DNA of 64,000 nt from Hermatobates lingyangjiaoensis (lineage: Eukaryota > Arthropoda > Insecta > Hemiptera > Hermatobatidae), in contig JAPFBL010000528.1 of assembly GCA_026182355.1 (NCBI GenBank), positions 107,001-171,000 on the forward strand, in the 5' to 3' direction. Positions within the stretch are counted from its first letter, which is position 1. Each line of letters starts with the position of its first letter. Positions 2,853-62,533 of the stretch are shown here, in pieces. The position numbers and the translations under genes are program-made. The notes under the pieces were generated by a model, which saw only the letters and a list, made by a program, of their open reading frames with translations, did not search any database and was not told the origin of the DNA.

Positions 2853-2942
2853 TTATATATATAGTTAACACATGAAGGAGTAAATAAAAAATAAAGATAC
2901 ATCCTAAAGCTCACAACGATATTTCGACAAGTCGTTCGTCAG
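2853..2942 (-). mobile_element. Hammerhead-like module with tail and (TA)n
   Basis: On the minus strand, 2922-2942 carries CTGACGA, a hairpin GAC/GTC with loop TT, and GAAA. About 55 nt of tail follows (2867-2921) before the short TA tract at 2853-2866. Bases just before CTGACGA do not pair well with those after the module, so the stem I expected of a hammerhead is not evident. A second, partial GATGATCGAAATATC lies on the plus strand at about 2962, giving a rough head-to-head pair. Confidence 0.5.
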
Positions 2943-3066
2943 TGCCAGTTTGATCACTTAGATGATCGAAATATCTGTTGAATAGAGGTTCTTTCAATGG
3001 TGATAATCCTTATATATTGTTTTTCTTTCAATGTTTAACTAGTAGTCCTGTTGACCAATTTCAGTT

Positions 3067-3169
3067 CATTTATATATATATATATATAATTAAAGTTACA
3101 GCTAGAGAACACAAGAAAGAGAACTAACACTAACGAATCTCGATCATTTCGGCGTCTTGCCGTCTTCAG
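3067..3169 (-). mobile_element. Family D hammerhead-like module, tail and (TA)n
   Basis: Minus strand 3147-3169: CTGAAGA, one C, hairpin GGC/GCC with loop AAGAC, then GAAA. Four bases before the core (TCTC) pair with GAGA after it, as stem I would, and the nucleotides between fit a minimal stem III with C at the cleavage position. The tail runs to about 3090 and ends in (TA)n at 3070-3088. Among the best-formed modules of the window. Activity is untested. Confidence 0.6.
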
Positions 3170-3311
3170 GAGAGAAGAAGAAAATAAAAAGGAGAAGGAA
3201 TGAAGGAACGGAGACGTAAATGCGTCCACTGACCGATACAAACAGGTGAAGAACTGACCGAGTCCCGATAAACTATAGTTTTGCTTCTATTTCACGGTCG
3301 ACACTTTTATC

Positions 3312-3475
3312 AATATATATATATATAACACTTAAAATAAACAGTGACACATAGACTGAAATATAACATAATATATATATATATATATATATAAAATTCA
3401 CATAAGAGGTTATTGAGGATTTCGGTCATAAAACATACAACTCCTGATCATCAGCCGACGTTTCCCCAAAAGTTA
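3312..3475 (-). mobile_element. Family F tail between (TA)n tracts
   Basis: (TA)n runs lie at 3314-3328 and 3371-3393. The minus-strand sequence running from 3475 down to 3394 keeps AAACGTCGGC and CCTCAATAAC, blocks also found after the family F module at 27363, and ends at the (TA)n just as that copy does. The catalytic-type core is decayed here. Confidence 0.4.
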
Positions 3476-57670: not shown

Positions 57671-60109
57671 ATGAGTGTGTGCTTTAAATATTTTGGTAAA
57701 AACTGGATTTTTAAATCTGTTTTGTTACCATTGTACAATCTTTGAGGATTCACCTATTTTACTAACATATTTTACCTCATCCACTTAAATGATAAACATT
57801 TTTGGTATACAAGGTAGCTAGAAGGAAGTTAAATGGTTAGTGTAATGAATTTGAATTATAATGAAGTTGGTAGAGGTTGAATTTAAATAATCATAAAATG
57901 AAGAAAATCAATGGAATATACTTTCCAATACTTTACAATAGATTTAATTATTGTAAAGTCTGTTAGTCATTAGTCAAAAATATCTAGCAAATCCTAAGTA
58001 TCTCCTGTTAGTGACTAGCAATCCTTATCCGTGTACTTTTTATTGAAGTACAGAATAATTTATATTCCCATAGTTCGGAAATGATTAGGCTAAAAATGTA
58101 TTTTTGAAGTATGAATGAAGTAGATATACTATGAATTCCTAATATTAAACAGTTATTTATCGCAAATTCTATAACTTATACTACTTTAAAACTGATAGTT
58201 GATGCAGTGTTTCTGTTATTGTTTTTTAACTATATCAACTCCATTTTCAGGAATGTATAACAGGCTGTTTTACTTTCCGTTGTCGCTCTCTCGTGTTCTA
58301 ATTTCTGGTGTTTTATATATTTAAAATTATTCTTTAGCAGTTTTTTTTTAAAAGATCTTTTTCTAATTCAGTTTGCGAACAATGCCACCATATTATTGAG
58401 TCTACTTTCACTTGAACAAAAACGAGTTCGGTTTAGCTAAAGCCAATTCCACTAACCACCTACTTTCCTGTGAGAATTTTTTCTTTAGTTTCAGGAGTCG
58501 ATTTCATTTACCATGAGAGGAAACTGAATTAACAATGGTTGCCATATTATTTAATATTCCGTAAACCTAATTCTCAAATTATTGCATCATGATGATATAC
58601 TTTATCATCATGATGATTAACCTTTGATTAAGTAACAAAAAATAAATACTCAAATGACTATAAAGTTAATGAGATAGATGAATTAAAATAATTTACGAGC
58701 ATAATGACACAAAATAACTTTTTACTTTACTATATAGTGATCGTGAAAAAATTCGACCTCGAGATTTTGACGGAATTACATGTCTTGAGGTCCCTGAAGT
58801 CGTTTTATGAAGTTTTCTCGATGATGTCTGTGTGTTTTTTTAAACAACATTTTAAAACAACGGAAAATATTTTTTTTCAATAAAATATAAAAATTTTGAC
58901 TAATAATTCATTTTCAAAGCTTGTGAGAGCGATACAAGACATACCGTTTGACGGATCAAAATAAAACTATGCATAAAAATAGAACATTATATGGAAAACG
59001 ATTTGAGATGATTTTTTTCAAAATCACATTCACCAAAGGGGCGTTGAAGTACGATTTCTGTTTTCAGAGAATGTTTTTTTGACGCTAAACGGCTCATTAA
59101 AAACTCATGAAAATTTGATTATAATGGAACGAAAAATTAGCAATTCACAAGAAAATATACATGAAGTTTCAATTACAGGAAAGAGCAATAATGCTATAAA
59201 AACTGTTTGTTTATCCTAGACTAAGGGATCACCTGCTATACTTGTTGAATTTTTGATATTTTTTTTGCAATATTTACATTGACTTAGAAATTTTTTGAGC
59301 AATACCACTGAGATAAAATTAGACTATTCTAATCTAATAGTTCATATATATTATTTTCAAAAATTAGAAGCTCCCAACTATAAATGATTGAAATTATGTT
59401 GAATAGGTGGCTTCGACTTTGAGTTGAGTATGTAAACTGGTTAATTACTAATATATTTTTCCCAATATACATTCATAGCAAGCTTATAACAGAGTAAAAG
59501 ACGTAGGAAAAAAGATAACACTCACTCAGAGAAAATTAGTATATATGATTTTCGATAAAGGGGAAAGAAAAATGATTTTAATAAATACTAAGAAGCCATA
59601 AAATTCCCAGTATAATAATTCTATAAAAAACAAAAAATGTAAAACAAGAACTATTAGAACTATGCCTAAATAAAAACAATTTTAAGATCAGCATATAAAG
59701 CAATAATATAAATAGATGCAAAACATCAAAGAAACTCCAGATCTAATGACAGATACGGACTGTACTAATAATGATATTTTCTACTGTTTTATAAATTATA
59801 ATAACATTTTAAAATATCGTCTCAGAATTTTCGTTAAATACTCGTCAAAGACGTTTCTTCTAGTTATAAATAAAATAATCATCCAAAATTCAAATTGAAA
59901 AAGTACGATATTTTTTTCAAGCTTATATGTTGCTGCTATTACTTATTAGTCGTTTATGGTCTCAATATATCATAAGCATTATACAAGATAAGGTTGAATA
60001 GACAACCGTTTTTGCTAAAATAATTAAATGACTGAATGTAAGCTGCTGATTTGAATCCAGCTTTCATGAAAATATAATAGTATGGTAAAGAGGCTCTCGT
60101 AATTAAACA
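57671..60109. other. No feature seen
   Basis: AT-rich. A short perfect ATCATGATGATATACTTTATC-type inverted repeat lies at about 58586-58620. Confidence 0.5.
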
Positions 60110-60178
60110 CTGAGGAAAGCCGTTGAAACAAAGATAAGTTTGAATGCCTCTCTTTAAACGGCTCTCCTATATATAATT
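60110..60178 (+). mobile_element. Family I module and tail
   Basis: 60110-60128: CTGAGGA, a weak AA/TT hairpin with GCCG loop, GAAA. About 45 nt of tail lead to TATATATA at 60170. Single copy in this window. Confidence 0.35.
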
Positions 60179-60180
60179 CA

Positions 60181-62309
60181 TTGCTATTATACTTCTACCA
60201 ATTACTGATTTCTAATTTTATAATAAATTTTAAATTATTACTAAACAAATTAAAAAAAAAAAATCTGGAATGGCCTACACTCAACTTTACTAGAACTAAA
60301 AAAAATATCAAACTAGATAACAACATAATGCTTTTTATCTTCTTAAAAGCTTTCACATTCAATCATAAGTGAACATTTTTACATTTTAATAAAAAAAAAT
60401 ACCTTTTTTTTTTGGTGTTTCAAAAGTTTGATTTTTTTTCATTTATTCTCTCTCTGATAATAAAAATTATTAATGTTTTTATATATCTGTATATCACATC
60501 TCTGCCTTAAAGTTCTATCTGTTTATCCAATATAGTAGCATTCAAAATCGTATCTTATTCTCTAAATCTTATTTTAATTGATTATTATCACTACTTAAAA
60601 ATTCCAATGAAAAATAATTTCATTAATTAAGCAAAGAAATGAATTATAAAATCAAAATATTTAATAAGAAGAAGAAAAGAAAAAAAATTGTTTTTAAAAT
60701 CTGAAAATTTTGTGACCTATTGCTTCTGTTACTTCTATGATAATGCAAAAATTTGAAAACTCTTGAGTAAGTAGTTTAGGAGAAAAAGAATCTTATCTGA
60801 AAAGACATTTGTGCAAAAAGAAAAGTGATTTTTTCATAATTCATAATTGCTTCCAAACTATATGGTACATTTACACTATGAGGTCCATAATTGGGAAAAT
60901 ATTATTTTGTTCCATCAAGGATGTAGACTGTAGAATACAATTTTTTGTACATACACACCTACTTTCCCGCACACTTACAGATGTCATCGGAAAAAAGTTC
61001 GTGAAAAATGTTTAGGGATCTCAAAACATGCGGCTCAAGTTCTTAAAAATTCTTATAGACTTGCTCTTAAAATTTGTTTCTTTCTGGTATGACGAGAGTA
61101 TTCATGATTTGTAGTTTGCAGTCGTCGTTTTTCTTAATACAATTATTGATATTTTGACCTACAGCTTCTCTACTGAGTTTTCTTTCATAAATGTTCTTAT
61201 AGTAGTCTTAAGTTCCTTCATCTCATATTACTTTAGTACTCTCTATTTTTATTAAGCCATAACTTTCCTTTTGAGTATTTGCAAAATGTTTCTGAACGTA
61301 TTAGTTTTGAAACAATTGAATAAATACAAAAGAAAATAGATCATTTTTGCATTCATTCATATGAATCAATGAATAATAAGTATGGTCTAGCGGGAGTTCC
61401 GAGTCAGGATCAATTTTTAGTCTAGTGAGGTCAGTGATGCTTGCAACACGTTTTACCACGAGAAACAAGAAATTATGATTCTGTAATAGAGCCTCAATGT
61501 GCAAGAGAAGTAGCCCCCTTTGTTTGGATTGCAAATCAGAATTTCCAATTGAACAAAGAGCCTCCCTTTACAAAAGTTGCTAATATCTTTCTCATTTATT
61601 ACTCTAAAAATAGAAATAATTGTGAAAGAATAACGGTATTTTAATGTTGACATACAAATCACACAGTCAAATTATTAAGAAATAAACATTTTATTAGATT
61701 ACACTGTATCAGCTTTAATATTTTCTGTGTAATTTACTTCTATTTCTTCTCAGTTCTTATTTTCTTTCATGTCTCTATTCAAAAGCCAATAACAGTTATG
61801 AATGACTCATAACAAAATGTATTTTTTTTAAATGATTTTCAGGATAATTTGAGGAGTATATTTTAAATAAATAACTCCGTTGGGTAATAGGCTAAAAAAG
61901 CGACAATATATTACTTTAAAGCGACAATAATATTTAAAACTGAGACATTAATTGTACTATAGCTTATCTATAAATGCGAAATTTATTGCAATAATTAATA
62001 CTTTAGAAATGGTAAAATATTCTGGCGAGTATAATGTATGTTTTCTTTTCTTTTCTCTGTTTTAGTTACTAGTAGCACTTGGGCTAATGTAGCTCCTATT
62101 TCTTCAGTCATTAACTACTTACAAGTGTCTGGATGACCATCTTTTCTCTTGATAATGACGAACATCAAAATGTATAAGTGATTTATACTAATTCATTATG
62201 TTGTACTTTATGTTTTTTTGTTCTTAATTTGGCACTTTATTGCTGTGGCCAATTCCATCTATATAAATATATTATATGTTCTATTTATTATATAAATATA
62301 AATAATTTA
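60181..62309. other. No feature supported
   Basis: AT-rich. Overlapping 67-77 codon frames at 61301-61662 on both strands are not recognised. Confidence 0.45.
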
Positions 62310-62533
62310 AAGATTACATAAACACTAGAAATAAATCAATGATATTACCACAATAAGAAATAGGAAAACAAGACTAGATCTTTCAACCGTAACAAGCGGT
62401 CTTCGCCAAAGTCAAAACTCCAACTGATGTTGGGTTTTTGACTATGACGAAGACCGTTTGTTACGATTGAAAGATCTTAGTCTTGTTTTCCCATTTCATA
62501 TTGTGGTTTGATCATATATATATATATATATAT
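62310..62533. mobile_element. Older family A palindrome with (TA)n
   Basis: Both modules are decayed: minus 62381-62409 with TTGGCGA, plus 62444-62472 with ATGACGA and a broken stem. The tail remnant is on the left. (TA)n lies at about 62514-62533. Confidence 0.85.

Follow-up and report, generated by a model that had tools for sequence, protein, structure and literature searches.

Why should one stretch of an insect genome carry a swarm of short motifs that resemble the core of a hammerhead ribozyme, and to what kind of element do these motifs belong? We addressed this question in 64,000 nucleotides (hereafter the window) from the assembly of the hemipteran Hermatobates lingyangjiaoensis (GCA_026182355.1, 910 Mb; contig JAPFBL010000528.1, positions 107,001 to 171,000), which have about 29% GC over most of their length. 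Judged by sequence comparison, the motifs (modules) are very probably minimal hammerhead ribozymes of Penelope-like retroelements (PLEs). The minimal PLE hammerhead is a kind already in print; new are an asymmetric rule in the pairing of copies and the hint that it gives on insertion. Of all retroelements, PLEs are understood least; this genome, rich in young copies, allows two questions about them to be addressed by counting, namely the role of their minimal hammerheads and the way in which inverted copies are left.

The strict form of the module was defined as CTGANGA, one nucleotide, a stem of 3 bp or more enclosing a loop of 3-9 nt, and GAA; both strands were scanned, with 60 dinucleotide shuffles of the window as control. 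At a gap of exactly one base the window contains 17 such modules (shuffles: mean 0.35, maximum 3), whereas gaps of 0, 2 and 3 bases yield two, one and two modules, which is near background; CTGANGA alone occurs 47 times, compared with a mean of 19.1 in 30 shuffles. The initial annotation had claimed that families with different hairpins keep the boxes and the spacing; these counts confirm the observation, and the hairpins that it named are present in the window. The 17 modules belong to six families: F4 (stem GACCG/CGGTT, 11 modules), F3 (GAACAC/GTGTTC, two modules), and four families with a single module each (F2 at 27363, F1 at 52606, and the modules at 8387 and 3169). They are carried by the following features.

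52553..52703, plus strand: short element F1, 151 nt; module 52606-52630 (CTGATGA C GGTtcaACC GAA AATT A), putative cut after 52630, GTAAGT 6 nt on
27306..27455, plus strand: short element F2; module 27363-27394 (CTGAAGA T GATGTAcaaaTACATC GAA ACGT C), putative cut after 27394
20966..21330, both strands: F3 head-to-head pair, modules 21063 (-) and 21171 (+); GAACAC/GTGTTC, stem III ACGCGT; left 3' end short, right long
56614..56830, both strands: F4 head-to-head pair, modules 56685 (-) and 56719 (+); GACCG/CGGTT, stem III AGATCT; tail on the right arm, none on the left
35130..35339, both strands: F4 head-to-head pair, modules 35195 (-) and 35229 (+)
43767..43973, both strands: F4 head-to-head pair, modules 43877 (-) and 43902 (+); the tail is on the left arm
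28604..29242, both strands: cluster of F4 head-to-head pairs (28604-28821, 28862-29006, 29025-29242); strict modules 28716 (+) and 29100 (-)
54435..54579, both strands: F4 head-to-head pair, module 54506 (-); right arm truncated within the module
29846..29930, minus strand: F4 copy, module 29922 (-)
35635..35685, minus strand: F4 copy with an AACCG stem, module 35677 (-)
8352..8395, minus strand: single module 8387 (CTGATGA C GACggatGTC GAA AAAT C); GTGAGT 3 nt past the putative cut; stem III not self-complementary
3132..3177, minus strand: single module 3169 (CTGAAGA C GGCaagacGCC GAA ATGAT C)

F1 and F2 each have at least 40 scored copies in the genome; many F1 copies span query positions 14-164 at 97-99% identity, and F2 copies are 96-100% identical and mostly begin at query position 27. 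We extended the scan to about 294 kb, comprising the window (64 kb), 198 kb in 20 stretches retrieved as F1 copies and 32 kb in four arbitrary stretches, and found 17, 92 and 3 modules, respectively, at a gap of one base, compared with 5, 4 and 2 at gaps 0, 2 and 3 together (112 versus 11 over the 294 kb, 198 kb of which had been chosen as F1 copies). A covariance model (R1) built from 21 modules at other loci of the same genome, partly of the same repeat families but including no window sequence, gave 28 window matches at E≤0.1 (41 at E≤1; the Infernal E-values of R1 are rough), in agreement with the approximately 25 modules and dozen decayed ones reported initially. Because the four arbitrary 8-kb stretches also give R1 matches (7 at E≤0.1 in 32 kb), the swarm is genome-wide and not peculiar to the window.

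The boxes CUGANGA and GAAA around stem II are the search term itself, and stem II was part of the selection as well; other parts of a hammerhead were counted in 111 modules (one of the 112, at a locus edge, was left out). The A after GAA (A15.1), outside the search term proper, is present in 104 of the 111, and the first pair of stem II is G-C or G-U in 107. The extra base before stem II is C in 55, A in 42 and T in 14 modules and never G; every family found at the searched spacing has it, and the canonical start of stem II directly after A9 occurs no more often than background. One extra core nucleotide is also said to occur, beside A9, in the hammerhead of Chrysanthemum chlorotic mottle viroid, a plant viroid whose stem III is closed, whereas stem III of the modules here is loopless. 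By its title, reference 28 of PMC6155905 deals with a viroid hammerhead of natural origin whose core has an extra nucleotide. The caution that activity cannot be assumed with this additional base was fair, but the base does not count against the motif, because it is constant across families, other spacings are near background, G is absent from all 111 modules, and a viroid precedent exists.

Stem III is either missing or tiny, as in minimal PLE hammerheads. A perfect self-complementary 4- or 6-mer (ACGT, ACGCGT, ACATGT, AATT, ATAT or AGATCT) immediately follows GAA in 13 of 20 family representatives, compared with 1-4 of 20 at offsets of 1-15. Three of the 20 are simple-repeat-like hits and some are F4 variants; of the 13, two (L020 5159 and L024 1733) have one hairpin in common. 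These 13 lack the closed stem III hairpin of the canonical type I, and none was noted in the remaining seven representatives. If the palindrome is taken as stem III and the base behind it as H17, H17 is A, C or T in all 13 palindromic representatives, in line with the canonical NUH before the cut, and in these the four bases after the palindrome and H17 pair with the four before CTGANGA (stem I) at 2.85 of 4 positions in register, compared with 1.08-1.62 when slid by -3 to +6. In stem II, all four pairs show two-sided changes, with 94.0% of 83 cells paired in an alignment that has one row misaligned by one column.

Because a self-complementary stem III without a loop cannot fold back on itself, a dimer would be required. 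In a pair of RNAs the palindrome would give a continuous helix of 4 or 6 bp, and we infer that the RNA would be cut after H17 when two copies are held together by their paired palindromes. According to passages of PMC6155905, a continuous helix between two RNAs is the arrangement of the double hammerheads of viroid and newt RNAs. Cofolding with the core held open pairs the palindromes in F3 and F4, which agrees with a dimer. Families in which stem III changes and yet is always self-complementary constitute a natural series for the study of any dimer cleavage. The modules resemble the minimal PLE hammerheads of Cervera & de la Pena 2014 and Lunse, Weinberg & Breaker 2017 in their PLE setting, the missing stem III, the dimer as the expected active form and the large copy number in animals; this likeness follows the descriptions of the two papers in PMC6155905, PMC7229834 and PMC7761336 and the title of the 2017 paper.

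Modules with C as the extra base have a further feature. The usual 5' splice site of animals, GTRAGT, stands behind 47 of the 55 C-extra modules, compared with 2 of the 14 that have an extra T and none of the 42 that have an extra A; its frequency in the window is 0.00042 per position. These counts are not independent because the families are related. In the C-extra modules of L002, L003, L008, L010, L011, L030 and the window (52606 and 8387), it lies 3-8 nt past the putative cut. A complete PLE with a C-extra hammerhead and the presumed intron was not found among these sequences, and GTRAGT is thus a candidate splice donor only. Another candidate signal, the ATG formed by A9, an extra T and G10.1, was dropped as a general start of an open reading frame (ORF), since its frames in F2 and F3 run for only 10-13 codons before a stop and the ATG is absent from the C- and A-extra families.

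Each module precedes, by 60-100 nt, the 3' end of a short copy that is truncated on its 5' side and ends in or near a TA run; these copies are probably solo pseudo-LTRs (pLTRs) of PLEs. The ends of F1 are sharp (of 36 hits in loci and window, 24 start at the first three bases, 21 end at 151 and 9 at 134), and such sharp 5' ends, some 50 nt upstream of the module, may correspond to the transcript start. The connection to PLEs comes from longer copies. At locus L019, a GIY-YIG ORF (8199-8993; Pfam 5e-05) is flanked by modules of one F3-like family, inverted 68 nt before the ORF (8131, minus) and direct 557 nt after it (9550, plus), a pLTR layout described in passages of PMC3846280. At L024 (2701-3881, plus), outside the window, a reverse transcriptase (RT) is followed by GIY-YIG within 1.2 kb, as is characteristic of PLEs (RVT_1 6.5e-06, below the Pfam cut-off; NCBIfam group II RT 5e-09; GIY-YIG 1e-04, above the cut-off). 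L024 and L013 have their 3' end in common, and at the place of the module L013 has the hairpin followed by GAAACGTC, the core being lost. The window contains an end of this kind.

31317..31758, minus strand: 3' end of an L013-kind PLE, hairpin then GAAACGTTG, no CTGANGA core, TA run at the end; no strict module

In this copy as well as in L013 (1813-2304) and L024 (4492-4681), the hairpin and GAAACGT(C/T)GGC are kept, and TATGAAA stands where CTGANGA is expected; judging from these sequences, the L013/L024-type lineage is one whose hammerhead has lost its core. For F1, the 511 nt upstream of the element in L017 match L014 (515 nt, 85%) and L026 (276 nt, 87%), and in L017 this region follows an ORF remnant that we read by eye as the C-terminal part of a PLE. 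For two families the connection of modules with PLEs is good, and for F1, a third, it is weak. Sequence searches of PDB with two PLE pieces gave no match, a protein search with the L019 ORF gave one weak relative (44% over 22% of the query), and the RT and endonuclease pieces of L010 gave only chance names in Pfam at high E-values. At 5600-9759, L024 also contains a pair of long ORFs, of 481 and 923 aa, which overlap and by eye look like a long interspersed nuclear element with an APE-type endonuclease.

The initial annotation took the modules to be hammerhead-like, pointed to hammerhead motifs in Penelope pseudo-LTRs and other retroelements, and saw several unrelated families. Hammerhead-like modules of the Penelope pseudo-LTR kind are supported, with counts far above chance. 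Unrelated families are not supported, because all of them have in common the extra base, a stem III without loop, a similar distance from the module to a TA-rich 3' end and the tendency to stand head-to-head, and all families linked to an ORF sit in PLE-like copies. They can best be taken for lineages of a single kind of element.

Neighbouring copies of one family are nearly always head-to-head. Among the copies listed (at least 40 scored for each family), adjacent partners are head-to-head in 16 of 16 cases for F1 and 17 of 17 for F2, and all 17 F2 partners end at query 174-181 but start anywhere between 25 and 148. Modules of the same family no more than 260 nt apart are head-to-head in 19 cases, tail-to-tail in none and in tandem in two, compared with 4, 5 and 4 between families. 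By alignment, the ratio of head-to-head to tail-to-tail is 10:0 for F1, 26:4 for F4, 10:1 for family a2 and 2:0 for F3, three of the four exceptions in F4 being neighbouring pairs in the cluster at 28.5-29.2 kb.

The 3' ends come in a short and a long form (134 and 151 in F1, about 90-95 and 129 in F4, about 119-139 and 196 in a2), the long one with a tail, and the two arms of a pair differ in a regular way. Among 46 pairs of F1, F4 and a2, 40 were resolved, with limits between long and short that were set after inspection of the data and six unresolved pairs left out; 37 of them combine a long with a short end, three have two long ends and none has two short ends, where 19.9 mixed pairs would be expected if the arms were independent. 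Without a2, whose limits are broad, the numbers are 30, 1 and 0. Each pair was counted as an independent insertion, which is supported for most by differing inner ends, though copied pairs may be included. Single copies comprise 27 long, 18 short and 27 unresolved ends (13 long and none short in F1). The two arms, therefore, do not choose their start sites independently. In the parts of the PLE literature that were searched we did not find this near-exclusive rule stated, although passages of PMC3846280 already report for Penelope a tail that one arm carries, and in PAc (PMC11167929), a Poseidon-type PLE from the green anole, the tail consists of the segment that separates two RT start sites. 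The copies here thus show a trait of PLEs, namely pLTRs inverted head-to-head, one arm of which may bear a tail. (TA)4 or (AT)4 occurs within 40 nt of 67 of 108 resolved F1 and F4 ends, compared with 257 of 5000 random 40-mers, the signal being weaker for F1 alone (14 of 32). Because of these TA runs, short target-site duplications, another trait of PLEs, are difficult to delimit.

These asymmetric pairs might originate as follows. The PLE protein would cut both strands of a TA-rich target, RT would begin at one of two internal sites of the RNA, one for each strand of the target, and the two complementary DNAs would meet at their 5' ends, which would yield a palindrome of head-to-head copies, only one of which has the tail. 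The rule of long with short, together with the position of both outer ends on RT start sites, favours reverse transcription begun at two sites, one per target strand, over fold-back on an antisense template. Fold-back fits poorly because it predicts arms that are equal at the junction and does not predict both outer ends on RT start sites; start sites that are not independent are predicted by two-strand priming with an asymmetric complex and not by the fold-back model. In passages of PMC3846280, Penelope of the rotifer Adineta vaga likewise shows head-to-head and solo pLTRs, palindromic junctions, an optional tail on one inverted pLTR, AT-rich targets and intron retention; that paper favours self-priming on an antisense template, with which the fixed outer ends and unequal arms found here agree poorly. 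The word hammerhead does not occur in the text of PMC3846280 that was consulted.

PAc (PMC11167929) is a close counterpart of these elements. It has hammerhead stems I and II in its pLTR, cuts as well as extends both strands, favours AT-rich DNA and uses an internal stem loop as its RT start, and with the modules here it shares AT-rich targets, the cutting and extension of both strands, an internal RT start and a tail between two sites. Its cut site lies 26 bp after the start codon, and in F2 there are 26 nt from the A of ATG (A9, extra T, G10.1) through C17; the ATG of F2 and F3, in contrast to the start codon of PAc, opens short frames only. In vitro, the RT start of PAc is equal between strands, whereas paired insertions here nearly always have one site per arm. 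It is conceivable, though we consider it rather unlikely, that the loopless stem III serves mainly as an RNA dimerisation signal. The palindromes would then join two PLE transcripts for an asymmetric dimer of the PLE protein, priming of one DNA strand would take place at the distal (tail) site of the first RNA and that of the opposite strand at the proximal site of its partner, and the long and short head-to-head pair would be the footprint of a coupled two-template insertion. In the C-extra families, the GTRAGT donor just past the cut (47 of 55) would remove the RT start from the spliced messenger RNA, and splicing would thus separate message from template.

Several results weigh against assigning the modules to active hammerheads of PLEs. 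No hammerhead match was obtained when the window was scanned with Rfam at gathering scores, and at E≤10 there were 57 matches with no hammerhead among them, so that the check with Rfam hammerhead models proposed initially turned out negative; the loopless stem III and the extra base may be the cause. A search of the H. lingyangjiaoensis genome with RF00008 gave no match, but neither did 14 control genomes, and this result is hence uninformative. Since the Rfam hammerhead models miss this class, genome annotation misses it likewise. In unconstrained folding of six window modules as monomers and dimers, the complete hammerhead was never the minimum, and cofolding with the core held open gave no pairing of palindromes in F1, F2, 8387 and 3169. 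The covariation in stem II comes from modules that stem II itself helped to select. When stem I halves were swapped among families with the same extra base, 2.66 of 4 positions still paired (1.91 between groups), and because swaps within a group pair almost as well as the original, the support from stem I amounts to that of few independent groups. The ORF piece of L017 is matched neither in Pfam (E≤5) nor in NCBIfam (E≤1) and has only a weak profile match to GIY-YIG pieces (probability 20.6, E 0.0011), and the link of F1 to PLEs is for this reason partly a reading by eye. Location in a PLE pLTR is seen for L019, weakly for F1 and not for F2 and F4, which could be linked to no ORF, and the window gave no match to the PLE protein pieces tried. 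Finally, ribozyme mutants of PAc still insert (PMC11167929), and cutting may therefore not matter for insertion.

The last point bears on an explanation that we regard as possible but improbable, namely that the modules are decayed, non-catalytic structures in which hairpin and GAAA are kept as a protein-binding or RT-start signal, self-cutting being lost or irrelevant. The L013/L024 lineage and window 31317-31758, which keep the hairpin and GAAACGT without a CTGANGA core, would be expected in that case, and the Rfam result and the dispensability of cleavage for PAc insertion in vitro agree with it. Most families, however, keep CTGANGA, the pairing of G10.1, A15.1, H17 and stem I together, for which a hammerhead core is the obvious reason, although the share of intact cores is no measure of decayed copies because the search picked intact ones.

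Minimal PLE hammerheads also account better for the data than explanations that dispense with PLEs. Foldback DNA transposons or miniature inverted-repeat transposable elements, with the palindromes as terminal inverted repeats moved by a transposase into TA targets and the boxes arising by chance, might come to mind because F4 forms a near-perfect inverted repeat beside TA runs, with arms of 74-88 nt, and is short and present in many copies, and because a mariner-type transposase is encoded elsewhere in the genome (L003 509-1200, minus; Pfam DDE_3 and Mos1 HTH). This is very unlikely, as many copies are single and not inverted, arms are truncated at varying inner points and end asymmetrically at two fixed outer sites, six sequence-distinct families have box spacing and stem I register in common, and longer copies run on into a PLE-like 3' region. 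Non-LTR retrozymes, the tandem satellites of circular RNA with type I hammerheads, are likewise short, ORF-less hammerhead elements that co-occur with PLEs (in passages of PMC7229834), but they are tandem and have canonical helices, whereas here 19 neighbours of the same family are head-to-head and two in tandem, and stem III is loopless; we consider their involvement still more improbable. The least credible proposal is that the palindromes are hairpins of microRNA precursors: plant and animal microRNA models do match them, up to E 2.9e-12, but all matches are below gathering scores, such models match any long perfect palindrome, and modules also occur without a partner arm. Sub-threshold Rfam microRNA matches at 56617-56787, 35164-35260 and 21073-21161 call for caution in microRNA annotation.

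Apart from the strict modules, the window contains degenerate ones, most of them matched by R1.

52745..52787, minus strand: module with a 2-bp stem (GAggacaTC); strong R1 match; GTGAGT downstream
43675..43718, plus strand: module with decayed core, CCGATGA for CTGATGA; R1 match
23810..23852, plus strand: decayed F1-like module; R1 match
46432..46596, both strands: decayed F3-like head-to-head pair, 46469 (-) and 46556 (+); R1 match
4147..4196, plus strand: decayed module of the CTGAGGA-T-GTCTT family, AAAA for GAAA; R1 match
62309..62515, both strands: decayed F4 head-to-head pair, module 62444 (+) with one core mismatch

A palindrome at 57535-57585 (CAATATTTCGACCG..CGGTCGAAATATTG) resembles two copies of the L015 7319 family that stand head-to-head and meet within stem II. 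By eye, 28360-28470 looks like the end of a mariner/Tc1-like element (GGGTGTCTC...). The window also contains long microsatellites, namely (GA)n of 350 bp at 7380-7733, (AGA)n of 237 bp at 43095-43331 and a run of 103 T at 36534-36636.

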